Part shown: positions 14,719 through 24,454 of the stretch, piece after piece
Layout: every line of letters starts with the position of its first letter
How positions within the stretch are numbered: position 1 is the first letter of the stretch
Source of the DNA: Deltaproteobacteria bacterium
GTDB lineage: Bacteria; Desulfobacterota; Deferrimicrobia; Deferrimicrobiales; Deferrimicrobiaceae
Reading direction: 5' to 3'
Assembly: GCA_030668225.1 (NCBI GenBank)
Contig: DAOUUI010000005.1
Coordinates: 1-38,104 of the forward strand
DNA: 38,104 nucleotides
Notes under the pieces: model-generated
What the model was told of the DNA's origin: nothing
Seen by the model: only the letters and a program-made list of their open reading frames with translations
Database searches by the model: none
Program-made: the position numbers and the translations under genes

Positions 14719-15590
14719 GGCGTCCCTCCCCGAAACGGGACCGCGGGACGGGACAGGACGACCAGGACCTCCTCCACGGACAGGAAGTTCACGGCGCTTA
14801 CCACCCGGATGTTCAGAAAGAGCCCCTCGCGGGGACGGTCCACGCTCACGACGGTGCCCAGAAGGGTTCCCTTCGGCATGCTCCCGTCGAACCCGGAGAA
14901 AAGGATCCGGTCGCCCGCCACCACGTCCTGGGTCTTGGAGACGTACTTCAGCCGGCAGATGTTTCCCCCCATTCCCTCGGCGATCGCCCGGACGCGGGTG
15001 CGCTCGACGATCACGTCCGCGGCGAAGCGGCTGTCGGTCAGGAGGATGACCTCGGAAAGATCCGGGTAGGTCCGGTGCACGCGTCCAACGGCCCCCGCCG
15101 GGGCGACAACCGACATCCCTGCCTCGATCCCCGCTCCACTCCCCCCTTCGATGAAGATTCCCTGGAACCAGGGAGAGACGTCGTGCCCCACGACGCGGGC
15201 TCCGAGCTTCTTCTTCTCCAGGGTCTTCGAGAACCGCAGCAGCTCCCTGAGCCTCTGGTTCTCCAGCACCGCGTCCCGGCTTTCCTTCAGGTTCTCTTTC
15301 AGCACCGCCGCTTCCTTCCGGAGTTCCGCATTTTCCCGGGATACGGTCACCAGTTCAATGTACCCCGACCAAACGGAGGAGGCCCCCTGCCGGAGGAAAC
15401 CGACAGACTCGTAGACGGGTCGGAACACGTACGTCCCGATCCCCCCGACGAAACTGTCCAGGGAAAACCCGGGGGGGCGGACGAAGAACTGGATCGCCGC
15501 CACCATAAGGGCGATCATGAGGAGGAGACGCCACCACTTTCGAAGGAAATTCAACACCGTCAGCCGATCTTTCCGGTGCGGCTTACGCAC
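14715..15590 (-). CDS. mreC: rod shape-determining protein MreC
   Basis: A 291-residue bitopic protein: a cytoplasmic basic N-terminus, one membrane helix near residues 19-36, a coiled coil rich in Glu/Leu (about 70-115, SRENAELRKEAAVLKENL) and the beta-rich periplasmic MreC domain (VVGHDVSPWFQGIFIEGG, later GDRILFSGFDGSMPKG). It scaffolds PBP2/RodA outside the membrane. The GTG start nine bases after the mreB stop has no strong ribosome site, so coupling to mreB translation is likely. Confidence 0.92.
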   Translation of the reverse strand: MRKPHRKDRLTVLNFLRKWWRLLLMIALMVAAIQFFVRPPGFSLDSFVGGIGTYVFRPVYESVGFLRQGASSVWSGYIELVTVSRENAELRKEAAVLKENLKESRDAVLENQRLRELLRFSKTLEKKKLGARVVGHDVSPWFQGIFIEGGSGAGIEAGMSVVAPAGAVGRVHRTYPDLSEVILLTDSRFAADVIVERTRVRAIAEGMGGNICRLKYVSKTQDVVAGDRILFSGFDGSMPKGTLLGTVVSVDRPREGLFLNIRVVSAVNFLSVEEVLVVLSRPAVPFRGGTP

Positions 15591-15599
15591 AAACCCGAC

Positions 15600-16770
<1,171 letters not shown>

Positions 16771-18803: not shown

Positions 18804-21347
<2,544 letters not shown>

Positions 21348-21461: not shown

Positions 21462-21490
21462 TAAATAGCATGGAACTCCCGACAGGTCAA
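21462..21490 (-). promoter_or_regulatory. candidate promoter for hppA
   Basis: On the minus strand TTGACC (21490-21485), a 17-base spacer and TATTTA (21467-21462). The -35 box matches five of six consensus bases; the -10 is weak. It begins about 40 bases after the dynamin-like stop, suggesting hppA can be expressed independently of the fluoride-switch transcript. Confidence 0.5.
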
Positions 21491-21527: not shown

Positions 21528-23189
21528 CTACGGAGGAACCTCGAGGTAGCCCGTGAGTTCCGAAATCACCTCGGAAATCCCGGGGGATTCGGCGGCTTGC
21601 CGTCCCAGAAGGTCCTCCAGGGTGGACAGTTCGCTCCGGATGGTCTTCTTCGCCTGCCCGGCCAGTCGGGCGATCTCCGAACCGGTGCTTTCCCTCCAGG
21701 CGGCGGAAAGGCGGAACAGGTTCTTCTCGGTCTCGAAGCCGACATGGTGCAGGAAGTGGCGCCGGATGAGCGGTCCGAACAACGCGGTGGGGATGAGGAA
21801 CCATACGATGTCGAAGTGCGAGTCGAACACCCGGCCGCACGACGTGTCGGGCATGGGGGGGAGGCTCACATCCAGGGATACGCGGGACCTTTCGAACTCG
21901 ATGCCCAGAACCGTGCGCACATTGTCCGCCAGGCGTCCCTGAAACCCCTCCACCAGTCGCTCCATCCTGCCCCGAACGTCCTGGAGCATCTCCTGAAACC
22001 CCTCCGCCTCGGATGCGGAAAGGTCTGCCATTTCCCGCGTGTAGTGGTCCTGCGCCCACCGCTCGTACCGGCGGGTCAGCCGCCAGAGATTCCCCCGCCA
22101 GGAAGACATCTCCCCCGCAAGCAACTCCCGGGTCTTCCGCAGAAGCGTTCCCTCGTGCCGAAGAATCCTCCCTTCGATTCTCACCCGGACGTCCTCCCGG
22201 CACTTTCCGGCGACCAGCGAGACCTCCTCGAGGACGTTTTCGAGCTGCACGCGTTCGTTCAGGATGCGCCCTCGGAGGCTCTCCCGGAGGGAATCGTGGG
22301 AGGTCGACGCCTTCCAGGCGATCCGGAGGTACTGGCGCTGCTCCCGGATCAGGGTGCGCATCTTGTGGGACAGGATGGCCTTCGTCTCCTCCTCCCGGCG
22401 GGACGCAAGCGGAGCGAGAAGGCGCTCCGCGATCTCCCCGCGCCAATGGTCTACTCCGGAACGGCAGGAAAAATGGAACAACGGGAAAGCCGTCCCCAAT
22501 TTCTTGCCGAGGGTGGCACGCACATGCCGGGTGACGGCGGCCAGGTCTGATTCGCTCAACAGATCCACCTTCGTCAGGAGAATCACGATCCGGGGGGTGT
22601 GCCGGGCCAGGTCGGAAAGAAGGTCGATGTCCTGCTCCGAAACCGGCTGGTCCGCGCTGATGGCGACCAGGGCGGCTGCGGCCCGGGGGAGCCAATCCAT
22701 CGTCACCTGCGTGTTGTGCCTGAAGGCGCTTCCCAGGCCCGGGGTGTCGAGGAAGCGGGTGTTGGGATACCTGCGAAGAGAGGGCAGATCCACGGTCACC
22801 AGGGCAACGCCCTTCCGGTTCTCCGGGTTTTCCTCTTCCGTGACGAAGTTCGGAAGCTCCGTGACCGGAACGATGCGCTCCCCGCCATCTTCGAACCTGA
22901 CGCGCGCCTGCTCCCGCTCCCCGAAGCCCAATACCGTGATAACGGAGGTCACGGGTACCGCCCCGACGGGCAGGACGTCCCGGCCCGTGAGGCAATTCAG
23001 AAAGGAACTTTTCCCCGCCTTGAACCGGCCCAGCACGGCGATGTCGATTACGCCGTCATCGCGAAGCCCCTGCCGGCATGCCTGGATCTGCGGGGCGAGG
23101 CTTTGCAGCCGGAAACGGTCCCCGATCTCGACGAGCCGCTCCAGGAGCCGCTCCGGTCTATCCTCCCGCAACATCACGTTACCCGCCAT
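21528..23189 (-). CDS. dynamin-like GTPase behind a fluoride riboswitch
   Basis: A 553-residue bacterial dynamin-family protein. G-domain motifs are intact: P-loop GRFKAGKSS (54-62), switch threonine in PVTSVITV (79-86), DTPG (148-151) and TKVD (206-209). Residues about 260-430 are long charged helices forming the stalk, and residues 458-476 (HFDIVWFLIPTALFGPLIR) are a hydrophobic paddle-like segment expected to insert in the membrane. Another helix-rich part closes the protein. Family members remodel or protect membranes; this one has no known substrate. A GGAG box after an A-tract lies 12 bases before the ATG, slightly far. The gene is the first behind the predicted fluoride aptamer, which suggests a role in fluoride stress. 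Confidence 0.87.
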   Translation of the reverse strand: MAGNVMLREDRPERLLERLVEIGDRFRLQSLAPQIQACRQGLRDDGVIDIAVLGRFKAGKSSFLNCLTGRDVLPVGAVPVTSVITVLGFGEREQARVRFEDGGERIVPVTELPNFVTEEENPENRKGVALVTVDLPSLRRYPNTRFLDTPGLGSAFRHNTQVTMDWLPRAAAALVAISADQPVSEQDIDLLSDLARHTPRIVILLTKVDLLSESDLAAVTRHVRATLGKKLGTAFPLFHFSCRSGVDHWRGEIAERLLAPLASRREEETKAILSHKMRTLIREQRQYLRIAWKASTSHDSLRESLRGRILNERVQLENVLEEVSLVAGKCREDVRVRIEGRILRHEGTLLRKTRELLAGEMSSWRGNLWRLTRRYERWAQDHYTREMADLSASEAEGFQEMLQDVRGRMERLVEGFQGRLADNVRTVLGIEFERSRVSLDVSLPPMPDTSCGRVFDSHFDIVWFLIPTALFGPLIRRHFLHHVGFETEKNLFRLSAAWRESTGSEIARLAGQAKKTIRSELSTLEDLLGRQAAESPGISEVISELTGYLEVPP

Positions 23190-23239
23190 GGTGCCCGGAC
23201 ACTCCTTTTTTCGCCCTGCAAGATCCCGAATACGACAAC

Positions 23240-23309
23240 GCCCGTCGGGAGACCCCGGCGGGCATCGTTTCCTTAAGAACTCCCCCTCAAAGCCGAAGCC
23301 CCGCCGGGC
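23240..23309 (-). promoter_or_regulatory. putative expression platform with two exclusive helices
   Basis: Downstream of the aptamer a strong hairpin (23263-23240: GCCCG, a wobble, CGGG, a four-base loop, CCCG, CGGGC) could act as an attenuator although it lacks a T-tract. Its 5-prime arm CCCGCCGGG (23262-23254) is exactly complementary over nine bases to CCCGGCGGG (23308-23300), just after the aptamer. Forming that longer-range helix would prevent the hairpin. This arrangement is typical of a riboswitch decision, but the direction of control is not evident from the sequence. Confidence 0.55.
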
Positions 23310-23320
23310 ATGCCTTCTCC

Positions 23321-23373
23321 ACGGTCAGGGGTCATCAGCCCATACGGGCGGTTGAAGGCGAACCCCATCGCCT
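23321..23373 (-). promoter_or_regulatory. fluoride riboswitch aptamer (crcB motif)
   Basis: Read on the minus strand, the element starts GGCGATGGGGTTCGCC and contains the conserved CTGATG (23338-23333) followed by ACCCCTGAC. The three helices expected of the crcB/fluoride class are all present: GGCGA with TCGCC (23372-23368 and 23361-23357), GGGGT with ACCCC (23366-23362 and 23332-23328), and GCCC with GGGC around a four-base loop (23349-23346 and 23341-23338). The linker TTCAACC matches the usual A-rich joining segment. It lies about 130 bases before the dynamin-like start and on its strand, so it should sense fluoride in that transcript. Confidence 0.87.
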
Positions 23374-23396
23374 TTCCTGAAAAAAACCACCGACCC

Positions 23397-23405
23397 ATGA
23401 TATCA
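23397..23405 (-). promoter_or_regulatory. extended -10 promoter of the fluoride-switch transcript
   Basis: TGATATCAT on the minus strand is an extended -10 (TG, one base, TATCAT). Transcription would begin near 23390, about 17 bases before the aptamer. No good -35 is visible at the usual distance. Confidence 0.5.
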
Positions 23406-23497: not shown

Positions 23498-24454
23498 ATG
23501 GAGTTCGCGGGGAAACGGATCCTGGCCCCCCTCGCGGGGATCACGGACAGCACGTTCCGGCTGCTTTGCCGGGAAAACGGAGCCGACGTTACGGTTACGG
23601 AGATGATCTCCGCAAAGGGACTGCTCATGCATCCCGAACGGACGGGCCGGTACCTCCAATACGGGAAGGGGGAACGCCCCGTCGGGGCGCAACTGTTCGG
23701 GGCGATTCCGGAGGAGATGGCCGAAGCGGCCGCGGAAATCAGGCGCCTCGGGTTCGACTTCGTGGACATCAACATGGGGTGCCCTGTCCGGAAGGTCACG
23801 GCAGGCGGGTCGGGGGCGGCCCTGCTCTCCCACCCTCGCCTCGCCGGAAGAATCGCGCAGGCGGCCGTCTCCGCCGCGGGGATCCCCGTCACCGTGAAGA
23901 TCCGGTCGGGCTTCGGCAAGGAACCCGACTCGTACCTCGCGGTGGCGGCAGAGGTCTTCGGCGCGGGGGCTGCCGCAGTCACCCTCCACCCCCGTACCCG
24001 GGGGCAGATGTTTTCCGGCAAAGCCGATTGGGAACAGATCGCCCGTTTGAAAAAGGAATTCCCCGACCGCGTCGTGATCGGAAACGGAGATGTCAGACAA
24101 CCGGAAGACGCCTGGCGCATGGTTTCGGAGACCGGGTGCGACGCGGTGATGATCGGCCGGGCAGCTTTGGGAAACCCCTGGATCTTCTCCGCAATCCTTA
24201 AGGGGGTTCCCGCCGCAGCGGGAGCAGGCACGCAGGGGATGGCGATCGGCCCTTCCCCCGAAGAACGCAGGGCGCTGATCCTCAGGCACGGAGAGGAGAT
24301 GCACCGACGCAAAGGGGAGCCCGGGATCCGGGAGATGCGAAAGCACCTTGCCTGGTACAGCCGGGGGATCCCCGGCTCCTCCGCATTCCGGGGGCACCTC
24401 GTGAGAGTCAAGACCTTCGACGAATTCCGCCTGGCCGTAGAGCGATTCTTTTGA
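23498..24454 (+). CDS. dusB: tRNA-dihydrouridine synthase
   Basis: A 318-residue FMN enzyme that reduces uridines in the tRNA D-loop. Family signatures: LAPLAGITDSTFRLLCRE (about 9-26), the NMGCPVRKV loop with the catalytic Cys95, IPVTVKIRSGF, TLHPRTRGQMFSGKADW, and IGNGDVRQPEDA, then MIGRAALGNPWIF. The TIM-barrel and helical C-terminal parts are complete. It heads the dusB-ntrB-ntrC order long known as nifR3-ntrBC in alphaproteobacteria. Its stop overlaps the next start (TTGA). Confidence 0.93.
   Translation: MEFAGKRILAPLAGITDSTFRLLCRENGADVTVTEMISAKGLLMHPERTGRYLQYGKGERPVGAQLFGAIPEEMAEAAAEIRRLGFDFVDINMGCPVRKVTAGGSGAALLSHPRLAGRIAQAAVSAAGIPVTVKIRSGFGKEPDSYLAVAAEVFGAGAAAVTLHPRTRGQMFSGKADWEQIARLKKEFPDRVVIGNGDVRQPEDAWRMVSETGCDAVMIGRAALGNPWIFSAILKGVPAAAGAGTQGMAIGPSPEERRALILRHGEEMHRRKGEPGIREMRKHLAWYSRGIPGSSAFRGHLVRVKTFDEFRLAVERFF

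Follow-up and report, generated by a model that had tools for sequence, protein, structure and literature searches.

A predicted fluoride riboswitch in front of a dynamin-like GTPase gene in a deltaproteobacterial genome, a pairing that recurs across many phyla

Introduction

How cells survive fluoride has repeatedly come to light through the genes that stand behind fluoride riboswitches. The FRM operon of E. cloacae, ppaC-uspA-eno-gpmA-crcB-orf5249, is one such fluoride riboswitch operon (PMC5533749). Its description contains no mention of dynamin or GTP, a review (PMC11139923) makes no mention of GTPase, and the genes listed in the fluoride-resistance review and in the 2010 description of the riboswitch motif are other ones. 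Our search found no literature that links dynamins or GTPases to the fluoride riboswitch or to crcB; the survey of Baker et al. 2012 lay outside its scope, and an earlier mention is possible. Bacterial dynamins, for their part, have been described in connection with stress. IniA, a mycobacterial dynamin-like protein, is reported to be induced by drugs and to cut and remodel membranes with GTP (PMC6715688), and DynA of Bacillus subtilis is reported to take part in membrane surveillance under stress (PMC8844932), with no link to fluoride found for the latter.

Here we describe a locus from a Deltaproteobacteria bacterium of the Deferrimicrobiaceae, situated in a stretch of 38,104 nucleotides (contig DAOUUI010000005.1, hereafter the window). 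It carries an aptamer of the same class as the known fluoride riboswitch operons (PMC5533749, PMC11139923), but differs from them in that a dynamin-like GTPase is the first and sole gene of the unit and that no exporter is present. The partners known from those operons, namely CrcB, enolase, UspA, the Na+/H+ antiporter and MutS, also occur together with relatives of this GTPase elsewhere.

The riboswitch and its leader

An earlier note on this DNA had placed an aptamer of the crcB class on the strand of the dynamin-like gene, which the covariance model RF01734 bears out (Table 1). In the cmscan analysis the match has an E-value of 6.7e-13 for the window and spans the whole model (1-64 of 64); it is the single copy in the 2.1-Mb draft genome. 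With the ATG of the GTPase starting 129 nt 3' of it on the same strand, the aptamer lies in the 5' leader of this gene. The loop pseudoknot, left unpaired in the Rfam structure line, served as a second, independent check. Following the pattern GGNG/CNCC, it reads GGGG/CCCC in the window versus GGAG/CTCC, GAAG/CTTC or GGCG/CGCC at most other sites, a difference that is compensatory at the sequence level, and it is fully paired in 82 of the 89 riboswitch sites of related genomes, the few unpaired cases looking like misplacements of the pattern. In two congeners the aptamer is near-identical while its flanks have diverged. Judged by score and covariation the aptamer is genuine, and binding of fluoride with raised expression is predicted from its class.

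Table 1. Positions of the riboswitch-GTPase unit and its neighbours in the window
Feature	Position	Strand	Evidence
Extended -10 element TGATATCAT, promoter of riboswitch and GTPase	23397..23405	-	Sequence; congener equivalents
Fluoride riboswitch aptamer (RF01734)	23319..23381	-	55.5 bits, gathering score 34; pseudoknot covariation
Candidate expression platform, a leader hairpin 3' of the aptamer with a poor U-tract	23235..23268	-	Congener sequence
Ribosome-binding site of the GTPase, AAGGAG, with the ATG 12 nt downstream	23202..23207	-	Sequence
Dynamin-like GTPase, 553 aa	21528..23189	-	Pfam, alignments, AlphaFold model, Foldseek, motif positions
Promoter of hppA, TTGACC-N17-TATTTA, outside the fluoride unit	21462..21490	-	Kept in G001 and in relatives lacking the GTPase
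Neighbouring gene hppA (membrane pyrophosphatase), probably with a transcript of its own	18804..21347	-	PF03030 match, synteny
dusB, divergent neighbour	23498..24454	+	Adjoins hppA directly in relatives

The extended -10 element was found where the note had put it, and two congeners keep an extended -10 there, reading TGATACAAT or TGATACTAT; a strict -35/-10 scan listed no promoter for this leader. The hairpin between aptamer and start codon is also present in the two congeners, with a compensatory change from an A-U to a G-C pair. The terminator scan of the leader revealed no canonical terminator and did not list this hairpin, and the whole leader folds no better than shuffled sequences (z -0.67). 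Competing hairpins are seen in the minimum free energy fold of the leader; since the alternative pairing is weaker in the congeners, a switch between them is not claimed.

The dynamin-like GTPase

The translated gene behind the riboswitch contains a Dynamin_N domain (PF00350, E 7e-23), in agreement with the earlier reading. It displays the P-loop GRFKAGKS (position 54), DTPG (148), TKVD (206) and, at 463, WFLIP, a hydrophobic tip that is conserved. The residues of G1 (GxFKxGKS), G3 (DTPG) and G4 (K and D of TKxD) are invariant or nearly so in alignments of 31 and 59 sequences. The AlphaFold model (pLDDT 86.9) has a G domain and a trunk of long helices, which are predicted for residues 265-528 and bear the WFLIP tip. 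No transmembrane span is evident at this tip, which probably inserts into the inner membrane.

The best Foldseek matches of the model are IniA (6j72), which ranks first, and BDLP, both with low whole-chain TM-scores of 0.3-0.4, attributed to the orientation of the trunk. IniA is a stress-induced bacterial dynamin, but it shares only about 16% identity with our protein and is induced by drugs, whereas the GTPase of the window is expected to be under an RNA switch for fluoride. The profile of the GTPase matches BDLP of Nostoc (2j68) over nearly its full length (E 5e-43, 35-571 of 583 positions), with G domain and helical trunk in common; BDLP is longer, with 695 aa, and we know of no riboswitch linked to it. 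DynA, also a dynamin with a stress role, is much larger, and the GTPase matches only the first ~320 of the 1187 positions of the NCBIfam DynA model. In our best explanation, the GTPase belongs to a broad clade of bacterial dynamins of the BDLP/IniA type that is tied to fluoride stress.

The neighbouring hppA gene

The next gene in line encodes HppA (PF03030, E 1e-181), as the note had stated; its ATG at position 21347 is preceded by AGGGAGGGG. Upstream and divergent from the riboswitch are dusB and the genes of a histidine kinase and an NtrC-type regulator. A 538-aa open frame without Pfam or NCBIfam match was also seen in the window (15075-16691, + strand).

The note had further proposed that hppA and the GTPase form one fluoride-induced module. 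In all 26 genomes searched hppA is present, also in members of the family that have neither riboswitch nor GTPase, and in seven relatives it is the immediate neighbour of dusB-ntrB-ntrC, no GTPase separating them. The riboswitch-GTPase unit lies between dusB and hppA in the window genome (G000) and in G001, and beside dusB at a contig edge in G002. As the synteny indicates, the adjacency of dusB and hppA without the GTPase is ancestral, and the unit appears to have been inserted whole between the two genes. The promoter of hppA is kept in relatives that have no GTPase at this site. While the HppA proteins of the window and G003 are 90% identical, the GTPase of the window shares only about 40% identity with its counterparts in G003 and G004; this suggests that the unit was laterally acquired and landed beside hppA by chance. 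Synteny and promoter conservation thus speak against hppA as a part of a fluoride module, and the gene is, on this comparative evidence, independent of the unit.

Other fluoride genes in the genome and genus

That no exporter is encoded in the window had been noted before; for CrcB (PF02537) this extends to the whole genome, as well as to single-contig G001 and three further genus members (G002-G004). Neither the window genome, a 96.5%-complete draft, nor G001, which agrees with it in CrcB, CPA2 and riboswitch count, contains a second fluoride riboswitch or the riboswitch-linked kind of CPA2 antiporter. The window genome does have two CLC genes, both of the long CBS-domain type, and therefore presumably not CLC-F, which we take to be the short type. 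With no CrcB and no second riboswitch in either genome, the riboswitch of the window genome has no visible output other than the GTPase.

Distribution of the pairing

Riboswitch and GTPase were searched independently in 148 related genomes. Within the window's family, 16 genomes contain the riboswitch and the same 16 contain the GTPase (E < 1e-100), compared to none of the eight family genomes without riboswitch. The note had named close relatives with the GTPase but without the aptamer as an outcome that would speak against its reading; no such genome is seen in the family. Among the GTPases with strong matches in the 148 genomes (groups A and B), 30 of 35 have a riboswitch at most 2.1 kb away. 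Of the five exceptions, three belong to group A and are found on short or edge contigs separate from the riboswitch; the other two, of group B, truly have none nearby. As none of 38 further PF00350 genes from these genomes lies near a riboswitch, chance proximity was rejected. In a tree including these control dynamins, group A forms one side of a branch with an SH-aLRT support of 99%, and a 14-member core of group B is supported with 100%.

A survey of the genes behind the motif, as the note had recommended, revealed the GTPase as the first gene in 25 of 89 cases in the 148 genomes, equal to the CPA2 Na+/H+ antiporter (25) and more often than CrcB (6). These counts were obtained by tblastn, because antisense open reading frames in GC-rich relatives misled simple gene calling. 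Hence the joint-commonest first gene behind fluoride riboswitches in one phylum is of a membrane-remodelling GTPase type that goes unmentioned in the papers searched.

A wider scan of GTDB used the GTPase alignment alone as query and was followed by Rfam scans of the flanks of the 80 loci obtained; it overlaps in part with the survey above, a few genomes being common to both. A fluoride riboswitch was found in the flanks of 64 of the 80 loci, directly upstream on the same strand in 43, further upstream on the same strand in 16 and otherwise placed in five. The remaining 16 loci have none, some of them lying at contig ends or amid fluoride genes. Almost all loci stem from metagenome bins labelled as about ten phyla, including Desulfobacterota-type bins, Verrucomicrobia, Planctomycetota, Acidobacteria, Sumerlaeota, Goldiibacteriota, Chlorobiota, Bacillota, Actinobacteria and Bacteroidales; the one named strain is Syntrophomonas palmitatica (Bacillota). 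The Bacteroidales copies are mostly without riboswitch and have other neighbours. Several of them adjoin alpha/beta hydrolases or XdhC, so the clade is not purely linked to fluoride. Neighbours at the 80 loci comprise enolase (21), CPA2 (18), DUF190 (13), CrcB (11) and UspA (9), and the operon partners of the GTPase also include MutS and MFS; of these partners, CrcB, enolase, the Na+/H+ exchanger, UspA and MutS are known fluoride genes. Going by these genome comparisons, the linkage of riboswitch and GTPase is recurrent across many phyla and not a local oddity.

Proposed function and alternative explanations

We consider the locus a self-contained unit of promoter, fluoride riboswitch and dynamin-like GTPase, in which the GTPase is most likely a fluoride-induced guard of the membrane similar to IniA and BDLP, a reading that we hold with fair confidence. 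Since membrane roles linked to stress are reported for IniA and DynA and the closest structures are those of IniA and BDLP, this is the best-supported reading. By analogy with the riboswitch class, Mg2+-bound fluoride would stabilise the aptamer and switch the GTPase on. With its intact G domain, its long helical trunk and a hydrophobic tip probably inserted in the inner membrane, the protein would assemble with GTP on the membrane and remodel, seal or tighten it, comparable to IniA and DynA, guarding it while permeation of HF and acidification threaten the proton barrier. In this way it may complement export by CrcB, antiport by CPA2 and replacement of poisoned enzymes such as enolase, its operon-mates elsewhere.

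Fluorometallates bind GTPases, and the GTPase could itself be a target poisoned by fluoride, blocked by metal fluoride and GDP as a mimic of the transition state, with the cell making more of it as it does of enolase and pyrophosphatase. The operons shared with enolase would fit. Yet ordinary dynamins of the same genomes do not stand behind a riboswitch, and because the gene is not a housekeeping one, being present in the family alongside the riboswitch and otherwise absent, poisoning explains the locus less well than protection of the membrane and is unlikely. Fluoride might also engage the GTPase directly, in that GDP with MgF3- or AlF4- locks the membrane-assembled state, so that the protein is activated in addition to being induced, or it might titrate metal fluoride; its nucleotide-binding motifs are all intact, and the GTPase is the sole riboswitch output of a genome without CrcB, but its sequence bears no special signature, making such engagement quite improbable.

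Several genomes have the GTPase in one operon with CrcB and DUF190, where it might assist a fluoride exporter, for instance through the latter's placement or protection in the membrane. This is very doubtful given the absence of CrcB from the five genus members searched and the CBS-domain type of both CLC genes in the window genome. The least probable reading joins riboswitch, GTPase and hppA in a single module of membrane remodelling and pyrophosphate removal. It draws on the position of hppA next in line in G000 and G001, on a membrane pyrophosphatase following a riboswitch-linked antiporter in G057, and on the finding of no family-I soluble pyrophosphatase in G000; against it stand the location of hppA elsewhere in relatives and its presence in every genome searched, besides the ancestral gene order and the promoter of its own. 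What holds of the module proposed in the earlier note is thus the riboswitch as the evident control of the GTPase, borne by the linkage counts, whereas the joint part with hppA falls away.

Returning to the membrane guard, its confirmation would make the membrane itself a target or barrier in fluoride stress, give a whole clade of bacterial dynamins a physiological cue, which most of them lack, and offer a candidate explanation for fluoride tolerance without Fluc or CLC-F. The idea is directly testable, as the inducer is known and cheap and the pair is present in a named strain. Going further, a dedicated dynamin under direct fluoride RNA control in many phyla might constitute a non-export defence able to stand alone, possibly also switched at the protein level by GDP-metal fluoride; this we put forward tentatively and regard as rather doubtful.

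Further genes near fluoride riboswitches

Some additional observations were made at the surveyed loci. One region (L037:1-16000, G008) is a fluoride island with four fluoride riboswitches in 10 kb, located before antiporter, UspA, CrcB and DUF190 genes and two GTPases. Downstream of a fluoride riboswitch in this region lies the gene of a divergent dynamin-like GTPase (L037:3182-4864, + strand) with a Cys-rich C-terminal half (CPICG...) in place of the usual trunk; the domain search finds the G domain only, and the protein may be a fusion or belong to a different family. Proteins of DUF6062 (PF19538) with CPxC motifs are encoded behind fluoride riboswitches in three genomes (L082, L087 and the L073:9153 region) and adjoin a group A GTPase in a fourth (L160:3134-3928), making DUF6062 another uncharacterised candidate fluoride gene. 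A 260-aa protein of the prenyltransferase-type alpha-alpha toroid fold (PF00432) recurs behind riboswitches and after enolase in L129, L132, L143, L145 and L147. Finally, an nhaA-I (lithium) riboswitch (L133:9024-9080, + strand) has a CPA2 antiporter and fluoride riboswitches in its vicinity.
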